A program made the position numbers and the translations under genes. Below, piece by piece: positions 2,291 through 41,594 of a DNA stretch of 41,594 nt; position 1 is the first letter of the stretch; each line of letters starts with the position of its first letter. Under the pieces are notes generated by a model. That model saw only the letters and a list, made by a program, of their open reading frames with translations. It ran no database searches and was not told where the DNA came from. The stretch is from Aurantiochytrium sp. KH105 (Eukaryota > Sar > Bigyra > Thraustochytrida > Thraustochytriidae), in contig BGKB01000303.1 of assembly GCA_003116975.1 (NCBI GenBank), positions 1 through 41,594 of the forward strand. Direction: 5' to 3'.

Positions 2291-2656
2291 TCCTTTCTTA
2301 GTTTTGCTGGCCTTGGCCTTCCTTTCGCGCAGCCGCGGCAACGGAGCGCGTCTGCTGCGCGAGACTCGCGCGGCGCGGAGAAGAGCCGCAGAGCGTGGGA
2401 GCAAATTATCTGGCGGGGCCGCGCTGCAGGGTGCGAGGTCACGAGAAGAAAGGAGCGTGGACAGCAAAGTCTGCGGCAAGCCCTTGCTATTCTCACAACG
2501 ACCCTCGAGGGCAAGTTTTCAAGGGCGACGAGGAGGACGAGAACGGCGCCCTAGTCCGAGTCGTCAAGGGCAACGTCGTAAGATCGGAGACGTTCTTGCA
2601 TCGTGCAGTCTCGTCGAGCGCGGGAAGGGAGATTCCTGTCTTGCTCAAAGCAAAGC

Positions 2657-4465
2657 ATGGCCGGACAAACGACGGGCAGTGCGACCTCCGTGGGCGCGGC
2701 CCTCGTGAGCGGTGAGCGGGTCCTCTTTGCTGCTCAAATGGCCCAGCGAGACGAAGACGAGAACGGCAGAGACTCGGGATTTTTCCAAACAGGCGGAAAT
2801 GACGCTGACACGTCCACGGCACCCGAGTGGGTGACGGTGACCTCTTTTCGAATTTGCGTCGGTGGACCAGCGCCTCGGGAAGTTCCTCTTGGCGCCATCT
2901 CATCGGCCAAGGCGTCTCACGGCTCTGTTCACGTCCAGACGCGCGGACCGTTGCACATCAACGTAGCGTTTGCCAAACCAGAAGACGCGACCAAGGCGGC
3001 CCAGGTGATTCGCCACGCGGCAACCGTCGGCAAAGATGAGAGCATGAGCGCAATCGCGCGAGCAAAGCTGCTCTGCCCGAACGAGGCTGCCCGCGAAGGG
3101 TGGCGTCTATACGATGATCGCGCAGAACTGACGCGTCAAGGCCTTCCGAACTACTTGCGCATCTATGACCAAACGGAGGCCTACAAATTGTGCAAAAGCT
3201 ATCCCCGATTCCTTGCTGTTCCAGCATGTGTTAGCGACGAGGTTCTTCAAGCCTCAGCCGCTTTTCGAAGTGGCGGCCGTCTTCCCGTTGTGACGTGGAT
3301 TCATCCACGAACGCGTGCCGTCATGGCACGCAGCGCCCAGCCCCTCGTTGGCATTCGGAATCAAACGTCCGACATGGATGAGTTGCTCGTCGAGGCGCTC
3401 ATGATGCCGGACCCGAACGCACCCCCGGCATCCCCCAGTTCGAGCGTGACAACGACGACAGCGGACACTGTGGCTGGTACTGCGCCACCAAAATCGGGAG
3501 TCGTCGACGGCTCTCTTGCCAATGAGCCAAGGGTGCAGCCAAGGTCCATTCCCAAGAAGAGAAACGAGGATCGCAGCGTGCAGCAGTTTGTGGCCAACGT
3601 GTGGAGCAACATTTTTTCTGCTGAAGAACACGGTTACGTGATCATGGACGCGCGCAGCCAGATTGCAGCAATGGGCAACGCCATGATTGGCAAGGGAACA
3701 GAGAACCCAAACAACTACAAGGGCGCTCGCGTGGTCTTTAATGGAATCGAGAACATTCACGCCCTGCGCACTTCGTATCTTCGTTTAGTGCGCCTTGCGC
3801 AAGACGATAATTTCGAAGGGGATTTCTATGCTGCTGTCGTGGACTCGGGATGGGTACAGCACGTCAAGGCTGTTTTGCGTGCGTCGGTGCGTCTTGCGGA
3901 AATGCTCGATGTCGAAGGCGTGTCTGTGCTCACGCACTGCTCGGACGGTTGGGACCGCACCGCCCAAATGTGCGCCCTCGCGCAGCTCATGTGCGACACG
4001 CACTTTCGAACGCTCGAGGGTTTTGCAGTCCTTGTAGAGAAGGAGTGGTGTGCCTTTGGCCACAAGTTTCGCCACCGCTGTCGCAACGCTACGAGCGACC
4101 AAGAATTTTCTCCCGTCTTCTTGCTCTTTCTCGACTGTGTGCGTCAGCTTCTTCTTCAATTCCCCCGTGCCTTCGAGTTCAATACCGACTTTCTTCTCTA
4201 TCTCGCGGATGCGACGCAGAGCGACGAGACGGCCACCTTTCTCGCGAATACACAGCAGTACCGTAAGGCGATGGAGTTTTCGACTTCGACAGCCTCTATC
4301 TGGCCCTGCTCGCCTGCCGCACGGGACAAGTTCCTGAATGCGCACTATGATCCAGCGCGTGCCGTGGGCAAACTCATGGTACCGTCGCTGAACGGGAAAC
4401 GCATCAAGTTATGGACAAGCTTCTTTTTTCGCTACGACGCCAACTTTATCTCCGACGCACGCTGA
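2657..4465 (+). CDS. Myotubularin-family phosphoinositide 3-phosphatase
   Basis: A single-exon protein of 602 residues. Residues about 10-130 fit a PH-GRAM domain (VSGERVLFAAQ, then VTVTSFRICV and a strand-rich stretch to IRHAA). Residues about 145-580 are the myotubularin phosphatase domain. The signature HCSDGWDRT starts at His427, with the nucleophile at Cys428 and the P-loop arginine at Arg434, so the enzyme looks active rather than a pseudophosphatase. Other family landmarks are NYLRIYDQTEAYKLC, the IHALRTSY segment and VEKEWCAFGHKF. The family removes the 3-phosphate from PI3P and PI(3,5)P2 on endosomal membranes. Linker residues about 255-300 are Pro/Ser/Thr-rich. The frame is open upstream to 2603 without an ATG, so I start at the ATG at 2657. 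No coiled coil or FYVE domain follows, making it shorter than most animal members. Confidence 0.93.
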   Translation: MAGQTTGSATSVGAALVSGERVLFAAQMAQRDEDENGRDSGFFQTGGNDADTSTAPEWVTVTSFRICVGGPAPREVPLGAISSAKASHGSVHVQTRGPLHINVAFAKPEDATKAAQVIRHAATVGKDESMSAIARAKLLCPNEAAREGWRLYDDRAELTRQGLPNYLRIYDQTEAYKLCKSYPRFLAVPACVSDEVLQASAAFRSGGRLPVVTWIHPRTRAVMARSAQPLVGIRNQTSDMDELLVEALMMPDPNAPPASPSSSVTTTTADTVAGTAPPKSGVVDGSLANEPRVQPRSIPKKRNEDRSVQQFVANVWSNIFSAEEHGYVIMDARSQIAAMGNAMIGKGTENPNNYKGARVVFNGIENIHALRTSYLRLVRLAQDDNFEGDFYAAVVDSGWVQHVKAVLRASVRLAEMLDVEGVSVLTHCSDGWDRTAQMCALAQLMCDTHFRTLEGFAVLVEKEWCAFGHKFRHRCRNATSDQEFSPVFLLFLDCVRQLLLQFPRAFEFNTDFLLYLADATQSDETATFLANTQQYRKAMEFSTSTASIWPCSPAARDKFLNAHYDPARAVGKLMVPSLNGKRIKLWTSFFFRYDANFISDAR

Positions 4466-9514: not shown

Positions 9515-9540
9515 TAGTTGAAGTGAAGTCTTGCCTGGTA

Positions 9541-9870
9541 TCGAGAAACAAGAATGAGGCCACTACGGGTGCACGCCATGGACAAGATGATATCAACCAC
9601 TCGCCCATGGGGCGCCCCGTCTAGCTCGCACAGTAAGTCAAGGTACCAAGAGAAGGCAGCTAGGAAAGTCTTGGCAGTGGACGTCTCCTAGCTGGTTACT
9701 GTTAGTCTCACAATGTCCTGTGCTCCTCCTCACCAGCTCCTCTGTACATCAGTAAACCAAGACTCAGTCCTGACGCCGGAGCAAAGCAGTCCCATCGTGA
9801 CAAGACCCGAAACATCAGTAGCCGATAGCCGATCTCAAGTAAACCAGATTCCCATTTATACAGTCCAACA
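9541..9870 (+). repeat. Dispersed ~300-bp repeat family, copy 2
   Basis: It starts TCGAGAAACAAGAATGAGGC and contains GCCATGGACAAGATGAT, CGCCCATGGGG and CTCACCAGCTCCTCTGTACA. It ends near CAGTCC at 9861-9866. It is colinear with the copy at 17088-17400. Confidence 0.75.
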
Positions 9871-10235
9871 CCCAATATCAGGGGACAGATGAGAAAGTGA
9901 TGATGAACGAAATAAAATCGTAGAAAAGGATCCCCTCTCCCGTGCATGTGCACGAGAGTGGCTACGAAAGGCAGCAAAGTTTTCGCTATGCTGTTCGGAG
10001 ACTTGTAAGAAAAGCGATTATCTTGCTGACGACAAATGATCAATTTTGTCGGCAAGGATTCTGGAGTAACAGAACGCAAACTCCATTTCCAACACCGCTA
10101 AATGGAGAACAGGCACGCCACGACACATTCTGACCGAGGTCATCACTTCTTGAGGGACTAATGGGGGCACTTGCGTTATGCATCATGCATTGTCGCCTTG
10201 ATATGCTTTCATGATGTTGACCGCATTTTGAAGAA

Positions 10236-10546
10236 GTGGACTGCAAGATGGATTCTGTTTAGCGCTGATTGGCTACGGATATTTCGGGTCTGCTCGTGAC
10301 GGGACTGCTTTGCCTCGGCGTCAGGTCCGAGACTTGATTAAGTGATGTACAGAGGAGCTGGTGAGGAGCACGGGCCCGTTCTGAGGCTTTCCAGCTAGGA
10401 GACGTCCACCACCGTGACTTTGTAGTCTGCCCTCGCCTAGTACACTGACCGCTGCAAGGGAGATAAATGAGACTTCCCATGGGCGAAAGGCTGACGTCAT
10501 CTTGTCCATGCCGTCCAGCCGTGGTGGCGTCGTTGTTTATCCTCGA
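10236..10546 (-). repeat. Dispersed ~300-bp repeat family, copy 3
   Basis: On the minus strand it runs from TCGAGGATAAACAACGACGC through GGCATGGACAAGATGACGTC to AGAATCCATCTTGCAGTCCA. It is close to a reverse complement of the copy at 17088-17400, sharing the start, the CTGTACATCAC block and the AGAATCCATCTT end. This pair defines the family limits best. Confidence 0.8.
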
Positions 10547-10565
10547 TAAGAGCACAGGGATTCTT

Positions 10566-16806: not shown

Positions 16807-17097
16807 ATGCCCACGTCCCGAGAATGGGCGTGGACGAGATACCGAGAGTTGTTCAAGTACGAGACCCGAAATCATTACCAGAAAGTGTTCATCCGAGGTG
16901 CAAAAAAAGCGCATCTGCATGACATTGATCATCTGAATATCAAGATCGACGTTCCGGAGCACGATGATACAAGAAGCGGGACTCGCACTTTGTTCTGCGA
17001 AGATGCTCTGCATTTACGCTTTTCTAAAGCCAGGATGGCATTCGGCCCGTTTGATTCGGTTTCACAGCTGCTGCTCATGAACCCGTATAGAGGATAG
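16807..17097 (+). CDS. Hypothetical 96-residue frame, possibly truncated by a repeat
   Basis: From the ATG at 16807. The protein-like sequence includes TRYRELFKYETRNHYQKVFI and HDIDHLNIKIDVPEHDDT. It ends ...LLLMNPYRG at 17097, within the first bases of a dispersed repeat that begins near 17088. The stop may therefore come from the inserted repeat. No family was recognised. Confidence 0.3.
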   Translation: MPTSREWAWTRYRELFKYETRNHYQKVFIRGAKKAHLHDIDHLNIKIDVPEHDDTRSGTRTLFCEDALHLRFSKARMAFGPFDSVSQLLLMNPYRG

Positions 17098-17400
17098 ACA
17101 ATGACGCCACCACGGCTGGACGGCATGGAGAAAATGACGTCAACCTTTCGCCCATGGGAAGACTCATCTAAAGCCCTTGTAGCGGTCAGTGTACAAGGTG
17201 ACGGCAGACTACAGAGTCACGGCAGTGAACATCTCCTGGCCGGGAAGTGTGACAAAGTCCCGTGCTCCTCACCATCTCCTCTGTACATCACTTATCCAAG
17301 TCTCGGACCTGGCACCGAGGCAAAGCGAGTCCCATCACGACCAGATCCGAATCATCCGTAGCTAACCAGCGCTAAGTAGAATCCATCTTACAGTCCATTT
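17088..17400 (+). repeat. Dispersed ~300-bp repeat family, copy 5 (best preserved)
   Basis: It starts TAGAGGATAGACAATGACGC, continues GCATGGAGAAAATGACGTC and CTTTCGCCCATGGG, carries CTCCTCTGTACATCACTTA and ends AGAATCCATCTTACAGTCCA. It aligns along its whole length with the inverted copy at 10236-10546. It has no long conserved frame, so it is probably a non-autonomous element (SINE or MITE-like). Confidence 0.8.
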
Positions 17401-17519
17401 CTCAATACAATGCGAGCTGGAGTCTGCATCGAGGACGCTCATTTTCCGCGACCGCACGTCCACCCACCCTGCTTCTTCTACTCTTAGCGCATTGGGAGGC
17501 GAGCAAGAATCTGCTAGAT

Positions 17520-21307: not shown

Positions 21308-24300
21308 TCATTTTCTGGACGCCGCCTCCTCCTGCAAAGCGATAACTTCCCTCACTTGCGACGCGAGTTCTTCGACCTCTTTCTCCAGACCACCGCCTAA
21401 CATTGAGACAAAAAGTGGATTTCCACTCCAACCTGCGCGAAAGGCATTGTGCCAGCTCGATGTCTTGTCCAACCCGGATTCTAGCACGCATGGAATCATG
21501 TTCGCTGGTTTATGACTCTCCAATGCATAATAAAACTCTGTGCGACAGTAGTCATCTTCAGTTCTCTCCTTGTTGACCTTCTCCATGTACCTGCTTGTGA
21601 CAAAGACTATAACCACCTTGGACTGATCGATCCCGTCGGCCATTGACTTGAGAATGTCTTGTTTCATATCGTTCGTGTCGAGCCAGCAGTTGATGCCCCG
21701 AGCCTCGAGAGCTTTGGCCACATTTTGGACAATAACGTGCGTTTCGTGATTTACCCCCCAATCATGCGACAGGAAGGCATGAAAACGCTTATCAGTGCTA
21801 AGTAGACGCTTTGCCTCTTCGCTGGTATCAGCGAAAATTGCGAACGAGGACACGGGCAGCGATCCAATCCCAAGCGAAGGCACCATCTTGCTGCCCTTGG
21901 TGAGGGCATTTTCGAGCTTCTTCATCGAGACGCATGCAGCCTTTAGGTCCGTGCCATTTGAACTGACAAAAAGCCTTGGGCCGAGATTTCCCTTCATGAA
22001 GTGTGAATTGATGGAGTCGAGACTTCTCTTGAGGATCTGGACATGATGCGTCAAGTGTTTGTCTTTGGGCTTTTCAAAGTAGAACATCACTCGTTGACCG
22101 GTCGTCTCCAGTACTACGCCCACATTATCAAAGTTGATACTTGCGAAATCCGCACACAGTGTCAAGACGCGCATATAATCCGAGAGACTCTGAACGATAC
22201 TGGCAACATGACGCTGAAAGACACCTTGAGGCAGAACTCTGAAATCGACGTACGCCAATGCATGATCTCCACCAAGTTGCTCAAAGGCTTCGCTCTTCAC
22301 ATCATCATCAACGGGGCGCAAAATGCTTGGCAAGAGTAGCGCGCCTTCTTCGTCCACTTCATCTTCATCCTCTTCATCTTCGTCACCAATCCAAGGACTT
22401 GGGCACGCCAAAAGCATGGACTTCATCAGTTCCGTCAGGTACTCGACAGGTTGACCTTCCCAGAGACCTTCCAAAAGCTCGCGACTCGCGACTCCACGCG
22501 TTGACCAGCGTTCAAGCGCATCTCTCAGCTCGCTCGAGAAATCTTCGTCACCGAGTAGCCTCTGTTTGTGCCTCTCCATGTGGCCCATCTCCGGGTCGCA
22601 AATGACGCGCGAAAGGTTTTCCAGAAGCCACTGTGGCCGAATCACGACAATTTGGCTCAACATGTCATTCTGCCCAGAGGTCAGGTGTACAAGCACGCCG
22701 AGTTCGTGCATGAACTTTAGCATCTTGTCCACATTTTCCTTTGGGACATAGCATCTTTCTTCGGCAAGCTTTCTCACCGCGTTCAGCGACAGGTAGTCAA
22801 CGTCCTGCGAAAGAAGCTGCTCCAAGCAATATGACCACCGCACAGGTACCTTTTCCTTGACAAAGTTTTCCTTTGCCGCCGAGGCAGAGAGTGCCACGCG
22901 CAGACGAGAAACGCGCTCATCTGCGTCCTGCCGATCCATGTTGTCGATGGGGAAAAAATAGAGGGTTGTCTTCTTCTTTCCTTTGCCCGTCGTGTTGCCA
23001 ATCACAGTCGACAAGCCACCATGTTTTGGGTTTAGCACCTTTGTCCGAAGAATTCGATCGATCTCCTTGTGTTGCTCCAAGGAAGACACCTCGTCAAGAT
23101 AAGTCCCAACAATCGCAATCTTGACGTTTGGTGCGTGAAGGCGAATGGAGTCGATCCAGAAACAGAGGGTCTCCAAGGCCTCCTCTTGCGAGGCGAGCTT
23201 CTCGACCTCTTCTTCCTCGAGAATATTTTCAGAAGGTTCTTTGCCCAGTACCTCGCGCATGTCAAAGACGAGTACGTAGACGCCGTATTGAGTAAGAAAG
23301 AGATGGTGCAAGGCGTAAAAGACCTCCTGTCCACCGTAATCCCAAATCGTGAAGCTGATTTCCTCATCCGGCTCGCCAGCTTTCTCCTTTACCTGAAGAC
23401 GAAGCGGCGTGCTGACTGCTTTCGCGACCTCTTCTTCGTCAAAACGCATCGGTACTGGGCTCGAAGCAGACTTGCGAGATCTGGAAACTCGTGTCGCAGC
23501 AAGTGATGCACGGCGGGAGACGCGCTTAGCAAAGCTCTGCCGGCGATATTGAAGCTTGGAAAGTAGCTCGCCCAGATCGGAGTCGGAGATGTTATAACGC
23601 TCCTTCCAGTCATGCGTGCTTATAAGTGAGAGGTCCACGCCAATTGTAGATTCATGAACGCGTTTGACTGGTTGATCCAAAAGCGTGCGAATCGTCGAAG
23701 TCTTGCCTGCGGCGCCCTTGCCCACAACCATGAGTTTGGCGCGACCCCAGCGGACTTTTTTGTTGGCCTTGAGCGCCTCAACAGCTGCTCTGCTAGCCTC
23801 ATCTGCCTCGTCGCTCCGAAGCTCAATTCGAGCTGGTATGCGGGCCAGAATTCCGGCTGAGATTTTGCCTTCGTCCAAGCTGATTTTGAAAGAGAAATTG
23901 ATCATTAGTCCCTTCACTTCGTCTTTCCTGTGATAGATAACAGAATTCTTGCAAACGTACCTGATTGTTTTCAAAGAGGTGTTCTTCTCCAGCGCTTTCA
24001 CCAAGGCTGCTGCACCCACATCACCGATGTTGTTCCTGCTTAGGCTGTGGTTTTATGTATCAGAGTAAGTACAAAACGCTCATTGCCTTTACCCTTATCT
24101 TGTATAATCACGTCTCTCTGCTTTTTGCTTCCACAATCGAAACGCTTGCCTCCAATCAAACGCAGCAAAACACAACCGAACCAACTTACGACAAAGACGT
24201 AAGCGAGCTGTTCTTGCCCAAGCCTTCCCCGAGTCCAACGGCGCCCGAGTCGCCGATCTTGTTCGACTCAAGACTGTGCATGATGATTGTGGTATGGCAA

Positions 24301-27075
24301 GGTATTCATTGCATTGATTGCATTCATTGATGAGCGCGAAATGGCTGTCAGTATCCACCCTCATGTCGCCGTCGCCGTCGTCTTGGCGCAGTCCCGCCTT
24401 GCTGCTCTCCGCCACGAACGCCCATCTGCCTTGCTTCACGCAGAAATCCACGCATGCCGCCTTCTTGCGTTGTCCAATCCAAAGTCTTGCCTCTAATCAA
24501 ACGCAGCAAAACACAACCGAACCAACTTACTTCAAAGACGTAAGCGAGCTGTTCTTGCCCAAGCCTTCCCCGAGCCCAACGGCGCCATCTGGGCCGATGT
24601 TGTTCGACTCAAGACTGTGCATGATGATTGTGGTGTGGCATGACATTCATTGCATTCATTGCATTCATTGATGAGCGCGAAATGGCTGTCAGTATCCACC
24701 CTCATGTCGCCGTCGCCGTCGTCTTGGCGCAGTCCCGCCTTTCTGCTCTCCGCCACGAACGCCCATCTGCCTTGCTTCACGCAGAAATCCACGCATGCCG
24801 CCTTCTTGCGTTGTCCAATCCAAAGTCTTGCCTCTAATCAAACGCAGCAAAACACAACCGAACCAACTTACTTCAAAGACGTAAGCGAGCTGTTCTTGCC
24901 CAAGCCTTCCCCGAGCCCAACGGCGCCATCTGGGCCGATGTTGTTCGACTCAAGACTGTGCATGATGATTGTGGTGTGGCATGACATTCATTGCATTCAT
25001 TGCATTCATTGATGAGCGCGAAATGGCTGTCAGTATCCACCCTCATGTCGCCGTCGCCGTCGTCTTGGCGCAGTCCCGCCTTTCTGCTCTCCGCCACGAA
25101 CGCCCATCTGCCTTGCTTCACGCAGAAATCCACGCATGCCGCCTTCTTGCGTTGTCCAATCCAAAGTCTTGCCTCTAATCAAACGCAGCAAAACACAACC
25201 GAACCAACTTACGACAAAGACGTAAGCGAGCTGTTCTTGCCCAAGCCTTCCCCGAGCCCAACGGCGCCTTCTGGGCCGATGTTGTTCGAACCAAGACTGT
25301 GCATGATGATTGTGGCATGGCATTCATTGCATTGATTGCATTGATTGATGAGCGCGAAATGGCTGTCAGTGTCCACCCTCATGTCGCCGTCGCCGTCGTC
25401 TTGGCGCAGTCCCGCCTTTCTACTCTCCGCCATGAACGCCCACCTGCCGTCCTTCACGCAGAAATCCACGCATGCCGCCTTCTTGCGTTGTCCAATCCAA
25501 AGTCTTGCCTCCAATCAAACGCAGCAAATCACAACCGAACCAACTTACCCCAAAGCCGTAAGCGAGCTGTTCTTGCCCAAGCCTTCCCCGAGCCCAACGG
25601 CGCCCGAGTCGCCGATCTTGTTCTTGTGAAGACTGTGCATGATGATTGTGGTGTGGCATGGCATTGATTGCATTGATTGCATTCATTGATGAGCGCGAAA
25701 TGACTGTCAGTGTCCACCCTCATGTCGCCGTCGCCGTCGTCTTGACGCAGTCCCGCCTTTCTGCTCTCCGCCACGAACGCCCACCTGCCTTCCTTCACGC
25801 AGAAAGACATGCATGTTGCCTCGTTGATCATTGTCAACATACAATCAGAACTTACCTGAGAATTTGCAGCGACGAGTTCGTGGAGAGCAAGTCTGCGATT
25901 GCTTTGCCGCCAACCTCGCTGATCCCGTTGAAGCTGAGACTGTGTGTTGCCAGTGAAAATAAGATGAAATGTCAGTCTTGTAATTTCAGGATCTGCCGCA
26001 GGAGTGTCGTCACAAGTCCTCTGCACCTATCTCAAGCCACCAACTTACTCCAAGAACGTGAGTATTGTATTGTCGCTTAGCGCATCGACGAGCGCCAACA
26101 CCCCATCGTCTCCAATGTTATTGCTCTTCTCGTTCCACTCGCTTCCAAGACTGTTGACGTCGTGACAATGAGCGAGCCATGTGAGTCTTCGATCAACTCA
26201 TTTCCAGGAGTCCCTCTCTTTGCTTGATGTGACCTTAGCACCGTAAAGATGGCACCAGAGCTGAGTGCTCGACTAGAGGATCCCGGCAATAATTGCACGA
26301 GGCCATTTTTGTGTCAGAACGACAAATTGAGGCTCAACTTACTTCAGCGAGCAGAGCGTGATATTCACGCTCAATGTGTGAGCAAGAGCAACCGCGCCAT
26401 CGACACCAATGCTGTTACACTTGAGACTGCATTCATTGAAAGTCTGTGGCTGTCAGTCTCTTGCTTGTTATGTAACGGCGTCGTTTCGACGCTAATATTC
26501 AGCTGCCTTTACCAGAGTATCTCTTATTGGTACTGTGCCCTAATCAACCCCGCGACAAGCTTCGACTTACGAAAGCGTGGTAAGGGAGCAGTTCTGGTGC
26601 AGGGCTTTGGCCAGAGCAGCGCCGCCCTCTCCATGAATCCCATTCTGTTCAAGACTGGGTGATGGCGACAAGCACATAAAGTCAGTGTCCTGCTGGCGTT
26701 GTGCAGCATTGGACTCAATTGGACCACTCCGGTTCTTCCTTGCGCAAAGATGTGCTCGCTTCCAACAGAGAAAATCCCGCTCAAACGCGAACTTACTTCA
26801 ACGAAACGAGCGAGGTATGTGCGCCAAGCTCTTTTCCCAGTGCCATTGTCCCTTCGTCGCCGATAGAACGCTTGGTGAGACTGCGGATAATTTTGGGAGA
26901 ATACGTCAACAGGCCAAATCGCACGAAACTTTTCGAATCCTTAAGTAAGCACTTCAACGTACTCAATCGTTTTGACGCCGTTCCGCATCAGTTCAATCGC
27001 CTTCTCCACCGCAGGTTGCCCGCTGAGACCTTCCTCGACGCCTTCCTCGGGCGTCTCATCTTCGCGCTCGGACAT
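21308..27075 (-). CDS. LRR-ROC-COR-TIR protein (ROCO family), 13 exons
   Basis: Exons (minus strand, in order): 26963-27075, 26797-26880, 26571-26654, 26343-26426, 26049-26150, 25856-25939, 25549-25632, 25213-25296, 24872-24955, 24531-24614, 24190-24273, 23961-24044, 21308-23879. Total 3627 nt, 1208 residues, in frame, stop TGA at 21308. Every intron is GT-AG and phase 2. Exon 1 starts MSEREDETPEEG. Exons 2-12 each encode one ribonuclease-inhibitor-type LRR (LxxNxIGxxGAxxLxxxLxxNxSLxxL). All are 84 nt except exon 5 (102 nt). The last exon carries a ROC GTPase with P-loop GKGAAGKT (residues 405-412 region), switch STIGVDL and DYGGQE; the usual THxD is replaced by TYLD. A COR-type dimerisation region follows, then an acidic EDEEDEDE linker. 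The TIR domain spans about 1051-1180 (FLSHDW, a BB-loop-like LDTNDMKQDI, DDYCRTEF). Glu1133 sits where TIR NADases keep their catalytic glutamate. Likely cytosolic receptor or signalling NADase; function inferred. Confidence 0.92.
23880..23960 (-). other. 81-nt in-frame intron between last LRR and ROC domain
   Basis: Donor GTACGT at 23960, acceptor CAG at 23880. Its length is a multiple of three and it contains no stop in the reading frame. Retention would therefore add 27 residues between LRR 11 and the ROC domain. I call it an intron because splicing restores the LRR pattern (SLKTI then SLDEGKIS), its borders match the other introns, and it is phase 2 like them. Confidence 0.75.
24190..25855. 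repeat. Five tandem exon+intron units (~341 bp), each with one LRR exon
   Basis: Units start at 24190, 24531, 24872, 25213 and 25549. Spacings are 341, 341, 341 and 336. Each holds an 84-nt LRR exon and a ~257-nt intron (shorter in the last unit) with a CATTGATTG/CATTCATTG microsatellite. Units 24531-24871 and 24872-25212 are identical base for base by eye, including the intron. In the other exons the second half is nearly constant (GAVGLGEGLGKNSSLT) while the opening codons differ. Confidence 0.93.
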
Positions 27076-32484: not shown

Positions 32485-35400
32485 CTACTCAAATTTAAAG
32501 TTTTCGCCGACAATGTCCGGCGTGAGAAGAGGACGCAATTTGTTCTCGACGCTGGCACGCACGCCTGGGTCTTTGATTCTCTCTGCCATGTAGCGACGAA
32601 GACGCTGCACTCGAAGTCGAGCCCAAGCTTGCTGTACGACAGCAAAATTGCTAAACAATGGATCTCTTTCGCCAGCAGGCTTTGCCGTACATGTTGCAAC
32701 GTGCCGATGACAAGCATTTGAGTCATCGCCTGTGTCCTGCAGACACCACGCGCAGAAACGACACGGGCAAGCGGCACATGACAGAGCACAGCAGCCGCCA
32801 AAGTCAGCAAAGACCGCTAAGCAGCGCGGGCACGACATGGTCAGGACCTCATTTTGAATGGCGCGAATGTGATTCTGCGTCGTCGGGTCCAACCCGTGTT
32901 CGCGGAGCGCTGCGTCCACACGATCACGGAGCTGACGCTCTTGTTCGGCTGCAGCGTCTCGCTCAAAGTGCGCGCGCACAATGTCAAGCAGAGCTGCAAA
33001 ATCCTCGAGGCAAATGGCACACGAGGCCGCTTTTACTAGCTCAATCTGAAAGGCCCTGTGACGCAATGTGCAGTGGGTCGCTGTGTTGGATCTGCAGACT
33101 GAAGAGACGAAATGAGCGACTGCATAGCGTCGGGCGTTTCCGAGCCTTCATAGAGGTCCGCGAGGACCATTCCTGCGGAAAATAGATCCACAGCAGACTC
33201 TACCTTGTCGACATTTCCGCTGCGAAGCTCAGGGGCCATGTATTTTAAGGTGGCTTGCATAGGCTGCGTCATGGTCACATTGAGCATTTGTACACCATCA
33301 AAATCACCAAGAACAGGTGAAAGGCCTTGGGCGAGGAAGACATTTTCTGGCTTGACGTCGCAGTGCACGAAGCCTTGCGAGTGCAAATCGTCAAGGCCAG
33401 ACAAGAGACCAATGGCGATGCATCTGCGCGTCGCTACCTCTGCGTGTGGATTGTCGCGGATCCAAGCGGAAAGATCGCCGCCCGAATAACAGGGCATCAG
33501 CGTGCATCCATGATGCGCGTCTTGCATGAATACGCCTTGGATGCGCACAATGTAGGCTTATTTGATCCGGGCAAGCGCTGCAACCTGGCGATAAAAACGA
33601 CTGCTCCACTCTTCGTTGGCGAGATGAAAGGACTTGAGCACAAAGTCTCGGCCGTTGAGATCGCGCACTTTGAGCACGGACTTGCCGGGCTTGGACGCAA
33701 GCTCGCGAGGGTCTCAAAATCCCCGCGCTTTGCATTGGTCAGCCAAATACCCAGCGTGGACAGCTCCTTGGGTACGCTCTTGATCACGCCCAAGGTCTTG
33801 ATCCACTATTGATCTCCGAGCAATTCGGGATAATGTTCTTCCGCATGCCTCAGCACCCGTGCGCGCTCCCTGCGCAGTTCGCTGCCCAGCTTGTAAGCAC
33901 TCTCGATCTGAGCAAGCTCTTGCTCGAGGCCCGGAATTCTGGCCTGCGCTTCAGCATCTCCGTCCATGGCATCCTCACGGGTGCATTGGAGATGTAGTTC
34001 AAGATCTTCTCGCTTTCTCTTGTTTTGACGATTTTTCCTGATCATTTCCGTCACACGTGATCTATCCTGCGCCGAAACCCCGGGAACGTGCCGGGAAAGA
34101 GAAGCTGACAAGTCTGTCACGGCCGTCTGCAAGCGCGAGACCTCATTTTGGACTGTGCGAGTATAGTACAAGATCGTGCTGGTCAGGGCTCGACGCACAT
34201 CCTCCAACGGGGCGTCAGCCATGGGATCAACGTTCGTCAAGGTGTCGAGCTCTGCTTCAAGTGCTTGCTGCACATTGTGAAGCTCCGTCACGAGAACCCT
34301 TGCCCTTTCGGGATGTCTCAGCGCCATGAAGAAAGTTGATTGGATGCCAAGGCGCGCTGTGCTCTCATCCAAAGCATCGATGGCTGTTTCCGTGTGCTCG
34401 CGCGCAATGCTCGTGTCGTGTCGACGTTCCCAGGCCTTTACGGCTTCGATCGCAGCTTGCGTTGCTTCCTGCACTTGCTCAAAAGTCACTGGTACGTGAA
34501 CATCATCAATGTCCACAGGTTCTTTCAGAATATCCTCCCACAGACTATGATAGGCGTCCAGCACGGACTTGATTTCTGGGTCCGTTTCTATCTTTTCTAG
34601 CTGACCCTCGACTCCGCTCGACAGAGCATCTCGGATACCCGCAACGAGGTCGCATCGGGCTTCATTCCGTTGAGAAATCTTGTTCACGTCCGTCTTGACA
34701 GCCTCTTGAAGCGCAGTCAGCTCTTGCTCCTTTTCATGAAGGGTGGCTTGCTGCGTGTCAAAGTCTGCAAGAGATGCGACCGGGTCCTTGCGCAAAAGTT
34801 GCTCGGTAAAGATCTCGTGCAGCCTCGGATGGAGAGTGACTTTGCCTTCTCCTCGTTCTGTCCGCGCAAGCGAAACCTTTGCAGCTAATGCATCAACTTT
34901 GCTCGTTTGCTCAGGATCCGCGACCGCTTGGAGAAAGTCAAGCCGATCCTGTGCACTTGATATCCCCACTTGTTCGAGGCGAGCACTGGTGAGCTTGTGG
35001 GCTTCTTCCAATGTTCGCACACCCTGATTGAAAAGCTTAATGACAGTCACTCGCAGCGCCTTGGTGGCAAAGTGAGCGAGCGGCAACGATTGTACGAAAG
35101 ATAGAAAGGTGGTCAAGTCCATGCGATCTTTCCAAGAGGCAAGCGCAAGGGCCTCCATTATCCCGGGAGACTCGCTTGAGAGACCTGCGCTGTGCTCGAA
35201 AAGAAGCTTAGCTAGAACAAGGCTAGCTTCTTCGTCGTCGGCTCCGCAAGCGTAGATCATTGGGGTCAGGCCCAAGCTGTCTTGCGCATAAATCTGTGCG
35301 GCGTCTGCCACGAGCTCCTTTGCCTTGGAAACATCGCCATTCTTGCATGCTTGCATGAGAGGCGTCTGGCTCTCTTTGTGCATTGCTTGAGCACGGTCGA

Positions 35401-36185
35401 GGTTGGTTTCGAGATCTTTGTCACCGTTTTTTGTGCTGCATTTTTGAGAAAATTAAAAATGAACGTCAGATGGAGAGGTGGCGCAGACTCCGTTATTTCT
35501 GTGTAACTTACTTTTGCGTCTGCAACGACGCCACAAAAACGCTCCGCGGCTGCTGCAACTTGCCTTGCAGACCCCGCGCCACCTCCAACATTGTCGCGAA
35601 CTCTAGAAACGCAACGGCATCTTCGCGTTTACGGTACTTGGCCAGCGCCAGTGCGTCCCTCCCTTTCTTAGTTTGCATATCCAGAGCGGCGCCCGCCGCG
35701 TAGCACAGCTTGAGGCAGCGCAGGAGACCCGCCTCGGTGTGATGCGGTTCCTCTGGCTGTTGACATGCCAGCATGAGCGCGGTGTATCCAATCTTCTGCT
35801 GCATGTCAAGCTCTGCGCCGTGCTCAATGAGGGAGTGGACTGTGTCGGGCTGGTCGTAGCGGCACGCCCACATGAGCGCGGTCCATCCAGTGTTGTTCTG
35901 CAGGTCAAGCTTTGCGCCGCGCTCAATGAGCAACTGGGCCGTGTCGGGCTGGTCGCCGCACCCGAGCATGAGCGCGGTCAATCCATTGTTGGTCTGCAGG
36001 TCGAGGTTGGCCTTTTGCTCAACGAGCCACTGCGCGATGGCGGGGTGGCCCCCGGAGTTTTTGTGAAGAGCCCACATGAGCGGAGTGTGTTGTGCAAGCG
36101 TCACCGTCGCGTTGAGCAGGGCGGGGTCGTTCTGCACGGCGCGCTGCACGCCGGCGAGGTCGCCATTCTTGATGAGATTGTACAT
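32485..36185 (-). pseudogene. Decayed ankyrin-coil-kinase-RBR gene (middle copy)
   Basis: It is colinear with the open gene at 38196-41594. Order: ankyrin exon 35512-36185, intron 35437-35511 (GTAAGT...GCAG), then the large effector exon from 35436. Lesions seen by comparison: one extra T near 35400 (CCTTCGACC); a nonsense TAG at 33806-33808 where the homologue has GAG after CAA; a 1-nt loss near 33706-33713; a TAA at 33558-33560; an 8-nt loss near 33068; and an in-frame deletion of 66 codons near 33010 that fuses CAICL directly to EDFAALL and removes RING1. Kinase landmarks survive (HCDVKPEN, GDFDGV, YMAPEL), as do RING2 cysteines. Several independent breaks make sequencing error unlikely. 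The ankyrin part alone may still be translated and is listed separately. Confidence 0.85.
35508..36185 (-). CDS. Ankyrin-repeat sensor exon of the middle RBR copy (open frame)
   Basis: ATG at 36185 (MYNLIKNGDLAGVQ). Read unspliced it gives 225 residues and a stop just inside the intron. Spliced at GTAAGT (exon end 35512) it leaves two bases, phase 2. It has about five to six ankyrin repeats: TPLMWALHK, GLTALMLGCGDQPDTAQLLI, GWTALMWACRYDQPDTVHSL, GYTALMLACQQ, GRDALALAKY. Ankyrin stacks bind protein partners, so this is a plausible ligand- or partner-sensing module. In the neighbouring paralogue the corresponding place is taken by an LRR exon. No frame lesion was found within it, unlike the effector exon downstream. 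It may be a free-standing ankyrin protein or a remnant under weak decay. Confidence 0.6.
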   Translation of the reverse strand: MYNLIKNGDLAGVQRAVQNDPALLNATVTLAQHTPLMWALHKNSGGHPAIAQWLVEQKANLDLQTNNGLTALMLGCGDQPDTAQLLIERGAKLDLQNNTGWTALMWACRYDQPDTVHSLIEHGAELDMQQKIGYTALMLACQQPEEPHHTEAGLLRCLKLCYAAGAALDMQTKKGRDALALAKYRKREDAVAFLEFATMLEVARGLQGKLQQPRSVFVASLQTQK

Positions 36186-38195
36186 GCTTGCCAACCTGCG
36201 CGCGCGACGCTGTCCTCGCCAGAGGTCGTCCAGTTCGAGCGAGCCTCCTCAACTCATCCAACCGCGCGCCGATCCGCCCGATCCGCGCCGCTGCCGCTCT
36301 GCGCCGCTCTGCGCCGCGGCCTGCCGCCGCAGCCCGCGCTCTCCGCGCGCGGGTCTGGCCCGAGGGCGGTGGCCGGTATGGGCAGAAGAGGACGAGGGAG
36401 AGCGAGACGGTGTAAAGGTCACGCCGCAGCGCGACAATGGCAGCCCCAAGCGGGCGAGTAAAAAATGAAAAGAAAAAACAAGGGGGTTTGGATCGCTGGC
36501 CACAGGATCGTGGCAACCGCAGAAGAGCAAGACAGGACGAGACGTCGCGGTCCGTTGGGGTTTGGAGAGAACGTTGATGAATACTACCAGAGTCGCTCTC
36601 GAGGTGCTGTTTTGCCCTGTTTAGGCAACGAGATGTCTCAAATTGGTTGACGCGGGCAAAGTGCAGGGCGAGAAGACCATGGCACTTGAGCAGTGCCGGT
36701 CGAAGACAACTTCTCGTCCGCTTCTTCGTTTTTGGGCGGGACAGAGCAGTCAATCACGCGCGCGCGCGCATTGGGCGCAAGCCCGCTTGAATGATACGTC
36801 TGGCGCGCTTTATGAGCAAGCCATGCCTTTCAATACTGCAAGTACAAAATGGACGCAAGCTCGCGCGTCAAACTTCTCGGCCGAATGCCTTCGAGTAGCT
36901 GGCGCGGATGAGGATGCAGTGTGGACTTTCGCTTTGCGAAATTATGCAAAGAGCCCGCAAAGAAAAGGAGCCACAGGGCCACGGTCTTGAATGAGCAGTC
37001 ACAGCGAAGAGAAGAAAAAGAGGCGAACGAAGCGAGATGCTTTCAAAAACGGGTGGGCGTGGAGGCACCTTTCGTGGAGCCCCTTGTTGTCTGAGAAATC
37101 GACGTTGCACCCTCGGGCTCTTGGACATGACGAAGAAGCCGAGTTTCCTGATAGCAGAGCTAGCCAAATCAAGCTTGGACAGTCTTTTTGCGCTGCAGGC
37201 TCATTCAGGCTTGCACGTAAGCGAAACGCGCTCGTACCGGCAGACAGACTGAAGTGAACGAGATTAACCGGTGGAACCGAATCGTAGACATCGAGGACAG
37301 CAACGACCTCTTGACGTGCTCTTGCTCAGCTCACCTTGCATTGCCAAACAAGTGCGTGCGTGGGCCGACGTTGTTGTGCACTTTATCCTTCCCGTGAACT
37401 CACGCAAGGTCGCCGGGGTCATCGCGGCGTGCCGCGCTCGTCTTGACACGACCCTCGCCACCGCATCCCTCCTCTTCTTTTCTCTGCCCTGTTCTTGCGC
37501 GCGGCGCTGTCGCTCAACGACGCAACAGCAACCTTTTGCGTCTGTGTTGCTGCTGGCTGGCTGGCAACCTCGGTCGGGCGCTTGGAAACCTCTCTCCAAC
37601 GCGCAGATGAGGCAGGCGCACACCCCAAGCACACACCCTTCCGCGCACCCCTAATCCTGCATTCACGCGCACCCCTCCCAGGAAGCTAGCTGCCTGTACC
37701 GGGCGCTGAGGCTGTGGAGGGGGGCACTCAAGACAACAGAGTGGCTCTGCAGCGCGCTGCACGAGCACGAGGACGAAAAAGGCCGGCATTCGGTTTTGAG
37801 GGCCACGTCGGAATCTGAATAATCGCTCGAGAAACGCTCGGGCACGATACGCGTTTCGAGAACTGAGCCACGCATGGCAACATGGAAAAAAGAAACAAGT
37901 AGAAATGGGGATAACGCACCTTCTGCATGCCACTGGTGAGCGGTGTCAGACTCTTTTCCTTGTGATCATCACTACATAACAAGCACCTGTGAAAGAGATG
38001 ACAAGACTTGTGTACAAAGGACTGCCTGTACGCTCATGCACAAAGCCCGTCCGAACGTGCGAGCAAGCCATGCAAGAGCTCTTTGCTCCAATCCGTCGAG
38101 AACATCATCAAAAGGATGAGCCCACGAAATGGCGAGACTCAGACAAGGCAACAAAATGCGACCAATCAAATCGATTCTGTTCTTCTCGGCATCTA
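36186..38195. other. Intergenic region between two RBR paralogues
   Basis: About 2 kb. A GC-rich tract at 36200-36420 should be the promoter of the ankyrin gene. A minus stretch near 36990-37140 (MSKSPRVQRRFLRQQGAPRK...) has a basic, mitochondrial-presequence-like look but no continuation that I can support. Positions 37600-37690 contain CGCACCC/CACACCC repeats. The rest holds nothing that I can assign. Confidence 0.4.
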
Positions 38196-41100
38196 TTATT
38201 CGAACCTAAAGTTATCGCCGACAATATCTGGCGTGAGGAGAGGGCGCAGGCTCTGCTGGACGTGGGCACGCACGTCTGCGTCTTCGATCTTTTCCGCCAT
38301 GTAGAGACGAAGACGTTGTGCACGAAGCCGAGCCCACGCTTGCTTTACAACAGCAAAATCGCTAAAGAATGGGTCTTCTTCGCCAGCAGGCTTTGACGCG
38401 CATGTGGCAACGTGCTCATGACAAGCATCTGAGTCATTGCCTGTGTCTTGCAGACACCATGCACAAAAATAGCATGCGCAAGCGCCACATTTGAGCGCAC
38501 AGCAGTCATCAAAGTCAGCAAAGACTGTCGAGCAGCGCGGACACGACATGGCGAGGACCTCATCTTGAATGGCGCGAATGTGATTCTGCGTCCTCCGGTC
38601 CAATCCATGTTCGCGGAGCGCTGCGTCAACGCGGTCACGAAGCTGACGCTCTTGTTCGGCTGCAGCGTCTCGCTCAAAGTGCGCGCGCACAATGTCGAGT
38701 AGAGCTGCAAAGTCCTCGTCTGGAACCGCGGATGCAATGGCTCGACCAGAAACAAGGAGTTCACAGTCGGGCGCGACACAGCACATGCTTCCATCCCGTC
38801 GTACGTTGACGTGAGCCTGAGCTTGAGTCGCGGCGCGAACCGACTCGCTCAGGCACTCTTTGCACGTAAAGTGGCCGTCGGCGCAAGAGACGCCTCCACT
38901 GACTGGATAAACGTCGAGACAAATGACACATGAGGCCTTCTTCATAGGCTCGGCCTGGAAGGCTTCGTGACGCAAGGCCTCAAGTGCAGTGGGCCGCTGT
39001 GTCGGATTTGCAGACTGGAGAGACGAAATGAGTGCTTGAATTGCGTCAGATACCTCTGAGCCGTCAAAGAGCTCCGCGAGCACCACACCCACAGAAAACA
39101 TGTCCACGGCAGGCTCGACCTTGTCGACATTTCCGTTGCGGAGTTCTGGCGCCATGTACTTGATGGTGGCCTGCATCGGCTGCGTCATGGTCACATTGTG
39201 CGTCTGCACGCCGTCAAAGTCGCTCAGCACCGGCGACAGACCCTTTGCGAGAAAGACATTTTCTGGCTTGACATCGCAGTGCACGAAGCCTCGCGAATGC
39301 AGATCGTGCAGCCCGCTCAGAAGACCGATAGCGATGCGCAGACGCGTCGCCAAGTCTGCGTGCGAATGATCGCGAATCCACGTGGCGAGGTCGCCACCCG
39401 AATAAAACGGCATCAGAATGCAGCCATGATGCGCATCCTGCATGAAGGCGCCCTGAATCTGGACAACGTAGGCCGATTGAATCTGGGCAAGTGCCGCAAC
39501 TTGATGGTAAAAGCGACTGCTCCACGCCTCGCTGGCGAGATGAAACACCTTGAGCACGAGATCGCGGCCATCGGGGCCACGCACTTTTTGCACAGACTTG
39601 CCAGGCTTGGACGCAAGCTCCTTGAGAGTGACAAAGTGCTCGCGACGAGCCGTCGTCCGCCATAAGCCCAGCTTGGACAGCTCCAGCGGTGCCCCGTCGT
39701 CGCCCACACCCAGGCGCTTCAGCCACTCTTGGTTCCGGAGCAGCTCAGGGTAGTGCTCTTCTGCGTGACGCAACAAGCGAGCCCGCTTCTTGCGCAGCTC
39801 GCTGTCGAGTTTGTCAACACTTCCGGTTTGAGCAAGCTCTTGCTCCAGGTCAGCGATTCTCGCTTGAGCTTCCGCGTCACCTCCTCTGGCATCCTCGCGG
39901 GCGTCGTCGAGTTCGAAAGCAAGACGCTTGCGCCTTCTCGTCTTGTTTCTGAGGCTCTTGAGAAGAAGCTCTGCCCCCTCGGTGTTTGGCTCGGTAAGTC
40001 CAGACGTGAGGCGAGAGAGCAAATGCCCAAGGTCCTTTACGCGCGAGACCACGCTCGAAATCGTACGAGTGTAAAACGAGAACATGCAGGCCAACGCACG
40101 TCGCACTTTGTCGAGCGGGGCATCTGCCATGGGATTGCCTTTTGACAAGGCGTTGAGTTCCGCAACAAATGCTTGGTGCACATCCTGAAGTTCCAATACC
40201 AACTCCTGGGATCTCTCGGGATACGTCAGCGTCATGAAGAATGTAGGCTGAATGCCAAGGCACCTCGTGCTCTCTTCTAGTGCGTTGAGAGCTGCAGTGG
40301 TGCGCTCGCGTGCAGCAATCGTATCATGGCGAGCCTCCCACGCCTTGATGGCCTCCATCATGGTTCGAGTTGCCTCCTGTACTTGTCCAAAGGTCACTAG
40401 TTCCACTGCATCGTCGACGTTTGCCGGTTCACCCAGAATGTCTCGCCAGAGCTTGCGACAAGTATCGACCACGTCGTTTGCATCATCTTCAAGCTCATGA
40501 AGCTTGATTTGCGAACTCTTTGCGAGAGTCTCTCGAATATACGCGATAAGGTCGCGCCGCATCTGGTTCCGTTCATGGATCTTTTCTGGGTCTGTCTTGA
40601 CGGCTTCCTGCAGTGTGGCGAGTGCTTGCTCTTTCTCAGATACAGCTGCTTGCTGCGAGTTAAAGTCTGCAACGACTGCAATCGGGTTTTCGCGTGAGAG
40701 CTGCTCGGCAAAGAAATCACGCAGCATTGGATGCTGGAGTTCAGCCTTTTCCTCGCTGCGCTTTGCCCGGGCATTGGAAAGCTCCGTGGCAAGAATCTCG
40801 AGCTTGCTTGTTTGCCCAGGACCTACAAACACTTGCAGCAACGCACGGCGGTCTTGCAAGCTTGCTATCCCCAGTTTCTCAAGCTGGGCGGAAGTAAGAC
40901 TGCGAATCTTTTTCAATGTCTGCACGCCCTGCTCGTAAAGCTTGACAACCATCTCTCGCAGTGCGTTGGTTTGCAGCTGCGCTAACGGCAACGAGTGTAC
41001 GAAAAATAGGAAGGCGGACAGCTTCATATGATCCTTGGAAGAAGCATTCGCAATGGCCTCTCTTATTCCAAGAGACTCGCTCGAAAGACCTACGCTGTGC

Positions 41101-41594
41101 TTGAAAAGAAGCTTGGCTACAATAAGAGCATTGTTCTCATCCTTTGCTTCGCAAACGTGAAACAGCGCTGTCTGACCAAAAGTGTCCCGCGCGTCGATTT
41201 GAGTCCCGCCAATGACCAACTTTTCTGCCTCCAAGATGTCCCCGTTCTTGCACGCCTGCATAAGAGGCGTCTGACTCTGTTCGTACAGAGTTTGATTGCG
41301 TTCGAGAGCGGCATCGAGAGCAGGATTGTCGTAGTCGATGCTGTAATTTCAAAATGTCAGAAGTAGGAATTTTATGCGGTCTGTGGGTCCTCTTTGGGAC
41401 TTACCCGAGCGTTTGCAATGTTTTGTTTTCTGCGAGTGCGTTCGCCAGCGCCGTCCAGCCCTCGTGGCCAATGTGGTTGCAATCAAGACTGCGCCCGTCA
41501 TAACATGAGACGCCAAGATGAACGAAATCGCGCCAGTGTTTGCATTCCGTCGCATCCCATGTGAGCAGCCGTGTGCGAGATCTGATCAGCTCTT
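38196..41594 (-). CDS. LRR-ankyrin-coiled-coil-kinase-RBR E3 ligase (5' end outside window)
   Basis: Exons seen: LRR exon 41405-41488 (84 nt, LDCNHIGHEGWTALANAL..., phase 2 on both sides), intron 41341-41404, and a terminal exon 38196-41340. Further 5' exons lie beyond the window. Residues are numbered from Met at 41261. An ankyrin-like repeat pair (SQTPLMQACKNGD, GQTALFHVCEAKD) covers about 1-60. A long charged, helical region (about 100-540) contains coiled-coil stretches. A protein kinase covers about 545-760, with Lys571 (VLK), HCDVKPEN at 661-668 (Asp663), DFD instead of DFG at 681-683, and APEL. RING1 starts at Cys778 (CVIC...CADGHFTCKEC). RING2 starts at 907 (CPRC). Cys920 in DDCCALKC aligns with the RBR catalytic cysteine. 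RBR ligases pass ubiquitin through that cysteine. A kinase fused to an RBR suggests phosphorylation-controlled ubiquitination downstream of an LRR sensor. No lesion was found. Confidence 0.88.
41405..41488 (-). other. Single-LRR exon of the RBR gene
   Basis: An exon of exactly 84 nt with donor GTAAGT at 41404 and acceptor GCGCAG at 41489. It starts with T as third codon base and ends with two bases (GG), so it is symmetric phase 2-2, like the ten 84-nt exons of the ROCO gene. The LRR is of the same ribonuclease-inhibitor type. Confidence 0.9.

Follow-up and report, generated by a model that had tools for sequence, protein, structure and literature searches.

Predicted LRR-ROC-COR-TIR receptor gene of Aurantiochytrium with single-repeat exons from a cassette set also present in predicted LRR-kinase-TIR genes

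In Aurantiochytrium sp. KH105, a contig of 41,594 nt (C303, hereafter the window; genome assembly 76.0 Mb in 367 contigs) carries a predicted gene for an intracellular LRR-ROC-COR-TIR receptor. Its 84-nt phase-2 LRR exons belong to a genome-wide set of cassettes that also occurs in predicted LRR-kinase-TIR genes, and we consider it probable that recombination turns over the array in which they lie and that selection diversifies the residues facing the ligand. The favoured process is germline cassette turnover combined with diversifying selection.

The gene is predicted on the minus strand, from an ATG at 27075 to a stop at 21308, and comprises 13 exons encoding a product of 1208 aa (Table 1). 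A first-pass annotation had described eleven exons carrying one LRR each, ten of them 84 nt long, with phase-2 borders, and the exon rebuild recovered this layout exactly: exons 2 to 12 each encode one LRR, exons 2–4 and 6–12 are 84 nt in length, and all 12 introns are of phase 2 with GT-AG ends. The 28-residue repeat encoded by an 84-nt exon is one that we take to be RI-like. In the spliced product, residues 1–393 match the Pfam LRR_6 profile in eight stretches (2e-51), and hydropathy analysis of the 1208 aa revealed no membrane helix, the top 19-residue value being 1.52. Two units of the tandem array, 24475–24815 and 24816–25156, are identical at 341/341 bases, which fits both a very recent duplication and an assembly duplication. 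Exon 12 was considered as a marker of the ROCO type and dropped, its best match to ROCO last exons being 14 of 27 residues, compared with a mean of 13.0 and a maximum of 15 to the cassettes.

Table 1. Features of the predicted receptor gene in the window
Feature	Position	Strand	Description	Basis
Exon 1	26963..27075	-	113 nt, start codon at 27075, without LRR, donor GTACGT	Exon rebuild
Intron 1	26881..26962	-	82 nt, mosaic switch from ROCO sister type to kinase-class type	Identity to C101 and C225
Exon 2	26797..26880	-	LRR, 84 nt, phase 2	
Exon 3	26571..26654	-	LRR, 84 nt, phase 2; missing in C101 and C90	
Exon 4	26343..26426	-	LRR, 84 nt, phase 2; missing in C101 and C90; relatives at kinase-class loci	
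Exon 5	26049..26150	-	LRR with 6 additional residues, 102 nt, phase 2	
Exon 6	25856..25939	-	LRR, 84 nt, phase 2	
Exon 7	25549..25632	-	First hypervariable cassette LRR (LHKNKIGDSG...)	
Exon 8	25213..25296	-	Cassette LRR (LGSNNIGPEG...)	
Exon 9	24872..24955	-	Cassette LRR (LESNNIGPDG...)	
Exon 10	24531..24614	-	Cassette LRR, equal to exon 9	
Exon 11	24190..24273	-	Cassette LRR (LESNKIGDSG...)	
Exon 12	23961..24044	-	Final LRR exon, 84 nt; common to C303, C101, C342 and C90	
Exon 13	21308..23879	-	Roc GTPase, COR-A, TIR_2, stop codon	Pfam and fold search
Tandem array	24134..25805	-	About 5 exon+intron units of 341 nt	Tandem Repeats Finder: period 341, 4.9 copies, 94% matches

Several other features lie in the same window. 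An open frame at 38199–41348 (minus strand) matches Pkinase (6.8e-29) and, weakly, ankyrin; an 84-nt phase-2 LRR exon is located just upstream of it at 41488 (minus strand), and another LRR/ANK-kinase gene may thus begin beyond the window. Ankyrin-repeat open frames occupy 33809–36248 (minus strand), with a 99-nt tandem repeat at 35768–36032. A further tandem repeat (period 328, 2.9 copies, 94% matches) is found at 1004–1942, and a myotubularin-like phosphatase domain (4.3e-113) at 2582–4462 on the plus strand.

The effector part of the predicted receptor is encoded by exon 13, which matches the Pfam profiles Roc (3.1e-16, 60.1 bits; curated cut-off 27), COR-A (2.4e-11, 44.2 bits; cut-off 35.3) and TIR_2 (1.2e-14, 55 bits; cut-off 28). 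The initial description of the effector as ROC-COR plus TIR is borne out by a profile search in which all three domains exceed their cut-offs. ROC is followed directly by COR, the arrangement of ROCO proteins, in both the Pfam and the fold matches. Compared with the PDB, an AlphaFold model of exon 13 (mean pLDDT 79, pTM 0.73, 23 sequences) returned exclusively ROCO and LRRK chains at ranks 1–28, including LRRK1, LRRK2 and the Roco proteins of Chlorobium and Methanosarcina, with E values down to 2.5e-15; weaker matches comprised the TIR domain of SARM1 (7djt, 8.3e-4) and other TIR chains. The TIR_2 profile and the SARM1 match both identify the fold of TIR NADases, and Pfam searches of exon 13, of the last exons of the kinase class described below and of the spliced LRR part gave no match to NB-ARC, which places the protein outside the TIR-NB-LRR (TNL) type.

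The glutamate first proposed at residue 1133 occupies the same position in the rebuilt product. It lies in the motif CRTEF, corresponds to the nearly invariant E785 of our alignment A1 and is a glutamate in at least 90% of the 23 aligned proteins. We presume the position to be that of the catalytic glutamate E642 of SARM1, and Glu1133 could act in NAD+ cleavage. By analogy with the protein families concerned, binding of a ligand by the concave LRR face would change the GTPase or dimer state of ROC-COR, which would bring TIR domains together and allow Glu1133 to cleave NAD+, the receptor's likely task being to let a single-celled thraustochytrid recognise microbes, parasites or viruses. An alternative function is that of a non-immune LRR-GTPase scaffold in self or mate recognition or in development, with TIR as a binding domain. 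Function is unreadable from sequence, allorecognition would also fit the diversity of the repeats, and Dictyostelium ROCO proteins act in chemotaxis and the cytoskeleton, as stated in an excerpt of PMC11378527; nevertheless, the TIR glutamate is kept not only across the alignment but also in the TIR pieces examined from both the ROCO and the kinase class, and we regard a scaffold role as unlikely.

The exon layout extends to the whole family. Among 174 LRR exons called in 41 genome pieces, which include both haplotypes, 172 are of phase 2 at both ends, 155 measure 84 nt and 17 measure 87 nt; the exon caller was phase-agnostic and counted only exons with an LRR core that also have a strong donor and an acceptor close by, and both the caller and the regular expressions are biased towards well-formed exons. 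Because 172 of the 174 called exons share phase 2 at both ends, the one-LRR layout is beyond chance. COR-A matches number 124 in the genome (116 above the cut-off), and these probably include both haplotypes, given that several pairs of contigs are 95–96% alike. In the closely related labyrinthulomycete Hondaea fermentalgiana, the gene model P0001, a separate prediction rather than a transcript, splices three 84-nt exons at matching phase-2 junctions of its near-identical copy C6; the genome copies C6, C201 and C22 are 99.2, 98.6 and 99.2% identical to Hondaea P0001, P0004 and P0027, respectively. With phase 2 on both sides, the frame is kept however many cassettes are present and in whatever order they lie. 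The early proposal that exon gain or loss leaves the frame intact agrees with the sister genes on C303, C101 and C90, whose frames are open with 11, 6 and 4 LRR exons, respectively. In C101 and C90, exon 2 leads directly into the array, and the four cassettes of C101 find their best C303 exon match at 82, 93, 98 and 86%.

A cassette consists of one LRR exon and about 257 nt of conserved intron, and the borders of the exon fall within a codon belonging to the predicted LRR beta-strand. A 300-nt exon+intron query yielded at least 82 DNA matches on 23 contigs, with 74–100% identity introns included and many at 90–97% across the intron. Six contigs begin or end inside or at cassette arrays (C57, C66, C300, C29, C217 and C143), and arrays are therefore undercounted. 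Such near-identical long introns would offer a footing for unequal crossing-over or gene conversion.

Cassettes run into ROC-COR-TIR at C303, C101, C342 and C90, and seven loci (C57, C42, C69, C300, C225, C116 and C29) join them to a second predicted output that pairs a protein kinase with TIR. The last exons of C57 and C42 match Pkinase (4.3e-21 and 1.9e-19) and TIR_2 (2.2e-8 and 4.6e-9) in Pfam, and the cassette loci of the other five match this type of kinase exon at 70–87% identity; in the genome, the kinase exon is present at 23 loci with a piece above 260 bits. The kinase-TIR genes would thereby supply a second output for the same recognition units. C215, at first assigned to the kinase class because of its flanking parts, is not among the seven, having no kinase match and lacking the H[GR]D[IV]K motif in its forward frames; its last exon (C215:49500-54000, L054) is that of the kinase class minus kinase and TIR, the frame passing from the N-terminal to the C-terminal part. 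The fourth ROCO-TIR sister (C342:1-5557, L011) contains one in-frame TAA and is pseudogene-like. At C9:122500-127500 (L056), two cassette groups surround a run of 1312 N bases, with a kinase-class exon about 16 kb off. Cassettes may have passed from the kinase class into one ROCO-TIR clade, a direction suggested by their presence, among the ROCO-TIR genes compared, in C303, C101, C342 and C90 only, C6 and C98 aligning in exon 13 alone. The first-pass annotation treated a single gene; its layout and domains stand, and its picture was incomplete in that the cassettes occur genome-wide and are common to a kinase-TIR class, the C303 gene is a mosaic, and variability is concentrated in a few LRR codons.

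The evidence for the mosaic comes from comparison with C101, which is collinear with C303 over window positions 17408–41486, at 94.8–97.7% in long flanking blocks, and may be either an allele or a segmental duplicate. To the left of position 17408, the window is similar to C65 instead. A dispersed repeat (17086–17402 and 9539–10548 in the window) has copies on many contigs, partly as inverted pairs, and the end of C101 collinearity at 17408 lies beside one copy. The 5'UTR of C303 is identical to C101 at 121/125 positions, and exon 1 at 110/113, against 111/113 to C90 and 89/108 to C225. From intron 1 onwards, the kinase-class C225 is the closer relative: 66/82 compared with 48/82 for C101 in intron 1, 72/84 compared with 60/84 in exon 2, and 73/85 compared with 32/62 at the start of intron 2, segments in which C101 and C90 agree at 76/83, 72/84 and 53/62, respectively. 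On these identities, the C303 gene is a mosaic in which a 5'UTR and exon 1 of ROCO sister type (97% to C101) are followed by sequence nearer to C225 (80–86%) than to C101 (52–71%).

One possible alternative is an old family history, in which the kinase-TIR and ROCO-TIR classes both descend from one ancestral LRR gene through a single swap of the last exon, with only within-gene tandem duplication and loss thereafter. On the intron tree, ROCO cassettes cluster, requiring 6 class changes compared with 11.0 in label shuffles (0/500 as low), with C215 still labelled as kinase class, C9 and C66 given no class and 7 of 50 inner branches well supported; the classes are therefore not freely mixed. The last cassettes of the four ROCO genes form one group on this tree, and exons 9 and 10 represent a plain tandem duplication. 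On the other hand, the ancestry of C303 changes within intron 1, and under the same class labels the nearest intron of the 12 ROCO cassettes lies in a kinase-class gene in six cases, in another ROCO gene in four and on the same contig in two. An old history as the whole explanation thus has a rather low probability. A 36-nt insertion common to the introns before C42_205224 (kinase) and C90_5210 (ROCO), with a support of 100/100, was discarded as evidence of transfer, being an expanded CAATCAATG microsatellite.

Arrays and mosaic could also be artefacts of misassembly among similar loci, as might be expected from the two identical 341-nt units, from the several contigs that end at arrays and from a window contig whose left end matches C65 and right end C101. 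However, the intron 1 switch lies outside the tandem array and is 80–97%, never 100%, identical to any other copy found, frames are open across the exons of C303, C101 and C90, and the remaining window cassettes differ from every other copy collected, which makes an assembly origin very unlikely.

The cassettes differ most where ligand contact would be expected. The comparison covered 55 cassettes obtained from 74 84-nt exons in 13 array contigs, 19 having been dropped on account of the class pattern or less than 100 nt of upstream sequence; the exon-collecting pattern partly fixed conservation at codons 1, 4, 6, 7 and 10–15, codons 16–24 being free of it. Nucleotide diversity reaches 0.38–0.72 at each base of codons 2, 3, 5, 8 and 9, compared with a mean of 0.139 across the 198 intron columns, four of which reach 0.45, and the five residues occur in 46 distinct combinations among the 55 cassettes. 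In cassette pairs with a 3.6% intron difference, 50% of the bases in codons 2, 3 and 5 differ; in 36 pairs at an intron distance of 0.01–0.03, these codons differ at 43% of bases and the remaining exon at 6%. Across 130 pairs no more than 0.05 apart in the intron, codons 2, 3 and 5 diverge 13.8 times as much as the intron (bootstrap 10.7–17.0) and the other codons 1.4 times as much. Codons 2, 3 and 5 have a pN/pS of 1.59, the remainder of the exon one of 0.55. The pattern, with near saturation of concave-face codons beside unsaturated introns, is consistent with filtering by diversifying selection.

This variation may not be wholly attributable to selection on residues, since codons 2, 3 and 5 also have an elevated pS (0.338, compared with 0.073 elsewhere) and, in codon 2 pairs sharing the first two bases, the third base differs in 20/35. 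Targeted mutation of the variable block, suggested by the raised pS and by third bases near saturation, was rejected as the main cause, though not fully. Codon 4, one of those at which the collecting pattern partly fixed conservation, encodes Asn in 55/55 cassettes and has a third-base diversity of 0.20, close to the intron level, which argues for selection on residues and against mutation of the block. Cassettes with closer introns are not more alike in the variable codons (Mantel r 0.003, with 206/500 permutations as high, and 0.027), and the two flanking introns predict each other poorly (r 0.064). In a second array family, consisting of ROCO-TIR genes on C72 and C156 (L030, L031, L035 and L036) with 84-nt LRR exons and 182-nt introns, codons 2, 3 and 26 stand out among eight exons. 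The contrast between codons and introns carries little meaning in a third set, comprising 20 exons whose introns are themselves too diverged. Four other ROCO gene pairs at 95–96% identity differ at 2/126 variable-codon bases, compared with 18/126 in three pairs of lower identity; fast turnover is therefore not general to ROCO genes and belongs to arrays with alike introns.

Somatic or mitotic rearrangement of the arrays, by which a clonal culture would hold many receptors in an anticipatory or adaptive manner as proposed for Ectocarpus, could draw on the near-identical long cassettes and perfectly phased exons, the six contig ends at arrays, the independence of hypervariable codons from intron history (Mantel r 0.003) and the different array content of C303 and C101 at 95% flanking identity, but contig ends at repeats are expected in any assembly, the codon-exact boundaries point to selection and an excerpt of the brown algal study (PMC11378527) reports no somatic recombinants, leaving this explanation a very slight probability. 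A broader proposal, which we consider doubtful, is that this single-celled stramenopile recombines a pool of hypervariable one-repeat LRR cassettes, both within clonal lines and between generations, into GTPase-TIR and kinase-TIR chassis of differing output, forming a modular anticipatory immune system that exchanges its recognition and signalling parts as exons.

Among known systems, the C303 gene and its cassettes most closely resemble the exon-shuffled LRR-ROCO genes of brown algae, reportedly described by Zambounis et al. in 2012. According to the excerpted text of PMC11378527, LRR-ROC-COR genes of Ectocarpus, Saccharina and others are built by exon shuffling from 72-nt exons encoding a 23-residue LRR, LRR-only sequences with shuffled exons occur as well, and each of several other SAR species, including Schizochytrium aggregatum, has no more than four ROCO copies. 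The likeness noted at the outset between the present gene and these single-LRR-exon ROCO genes is confirmed by that excerpt for the one-LRR exons with phase-2 borders (the C303 gene and 172/174 family exons), the ROC-COR effector, the proposed diversity by exon shuffling and the excess variation at concave LRR sites, which are placed here by the LRR consensus and not by structure. In contrast to the 72-nt exons and the sole LRR-ROC-COR architecture given for brown algae in the same excerpt (PMC11378527), the exons of this other stramenopile lineage measure 84 nt (155/174) or 87 nt (17/174) and the C303 protein has a C-terminal TIR (TIR_2 1.2e-14); moreover, DNA cassettes are common to a kinase-TIR class, with a mosaic between the classes.

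ROC-COR is likewise combined with TIR in the TPR-ROCO-TIR protein of the red alga Chondrus crispus, which has TPR repeats instead (excerpt of PMC11378527), and in prokaryotic LRR-ROC-COR-TIR proteins (P0067-P0072 and P0076; approximately 20–22% identity); among the material compared, exon cassettes are known in neither. Hondaea fermentalgiana has both architectures, LRR-ROC-COR-TIR and LRR-kinase-TIR (P0001, P0003, P0004 and P0006; P0077 and P0084), under the names LRRK or protein kinase; its protein set contains nothing better than 60% for the C303-type ROC-COR-TIR, which reflects either real absence or the draft assembly. Plant TIR-NB-LRR proteins combine hypervariable concave LRR residues with a TIR output, and lamprey VLRs combine such residues with modular LRR units. 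The present protein has ROC-COR where TNLs have NB-ARC, and while lamprey VLRs are assembled somatically, the C303 array is known from assembled genome sequence. In the open-licence literature searched, nothing among the titles listed treats thraustochytrid ROCO genes or labyrinthulomycete exon shuffling, the one exon-shuffling passage found, an excerpt, concerning Ectocarpus, and the available part of PMC12258536 contains none of the terms leucine-rich, TIR domain, LRR or immun.

What is new with respect to brown algae is that, in a unicellular and fast-growing thraustochytrid, two catalytic-looking outputs draw on a common pool of cassettes, one gene spans a mosaic junction, and the presumed binding codons are close to saturation next to introns that are young. 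Whether brown algal ROCO diversity is somatic or germline is a standing question, and thraustochytrids are clonal in culture, so that array stability is directly measurable with long reads. The LRR-ROC-COR-TIR and LRR-kinase-TIR proteins, which databases name LRRK or protein kinase, join the candidate immune receptors of protists.
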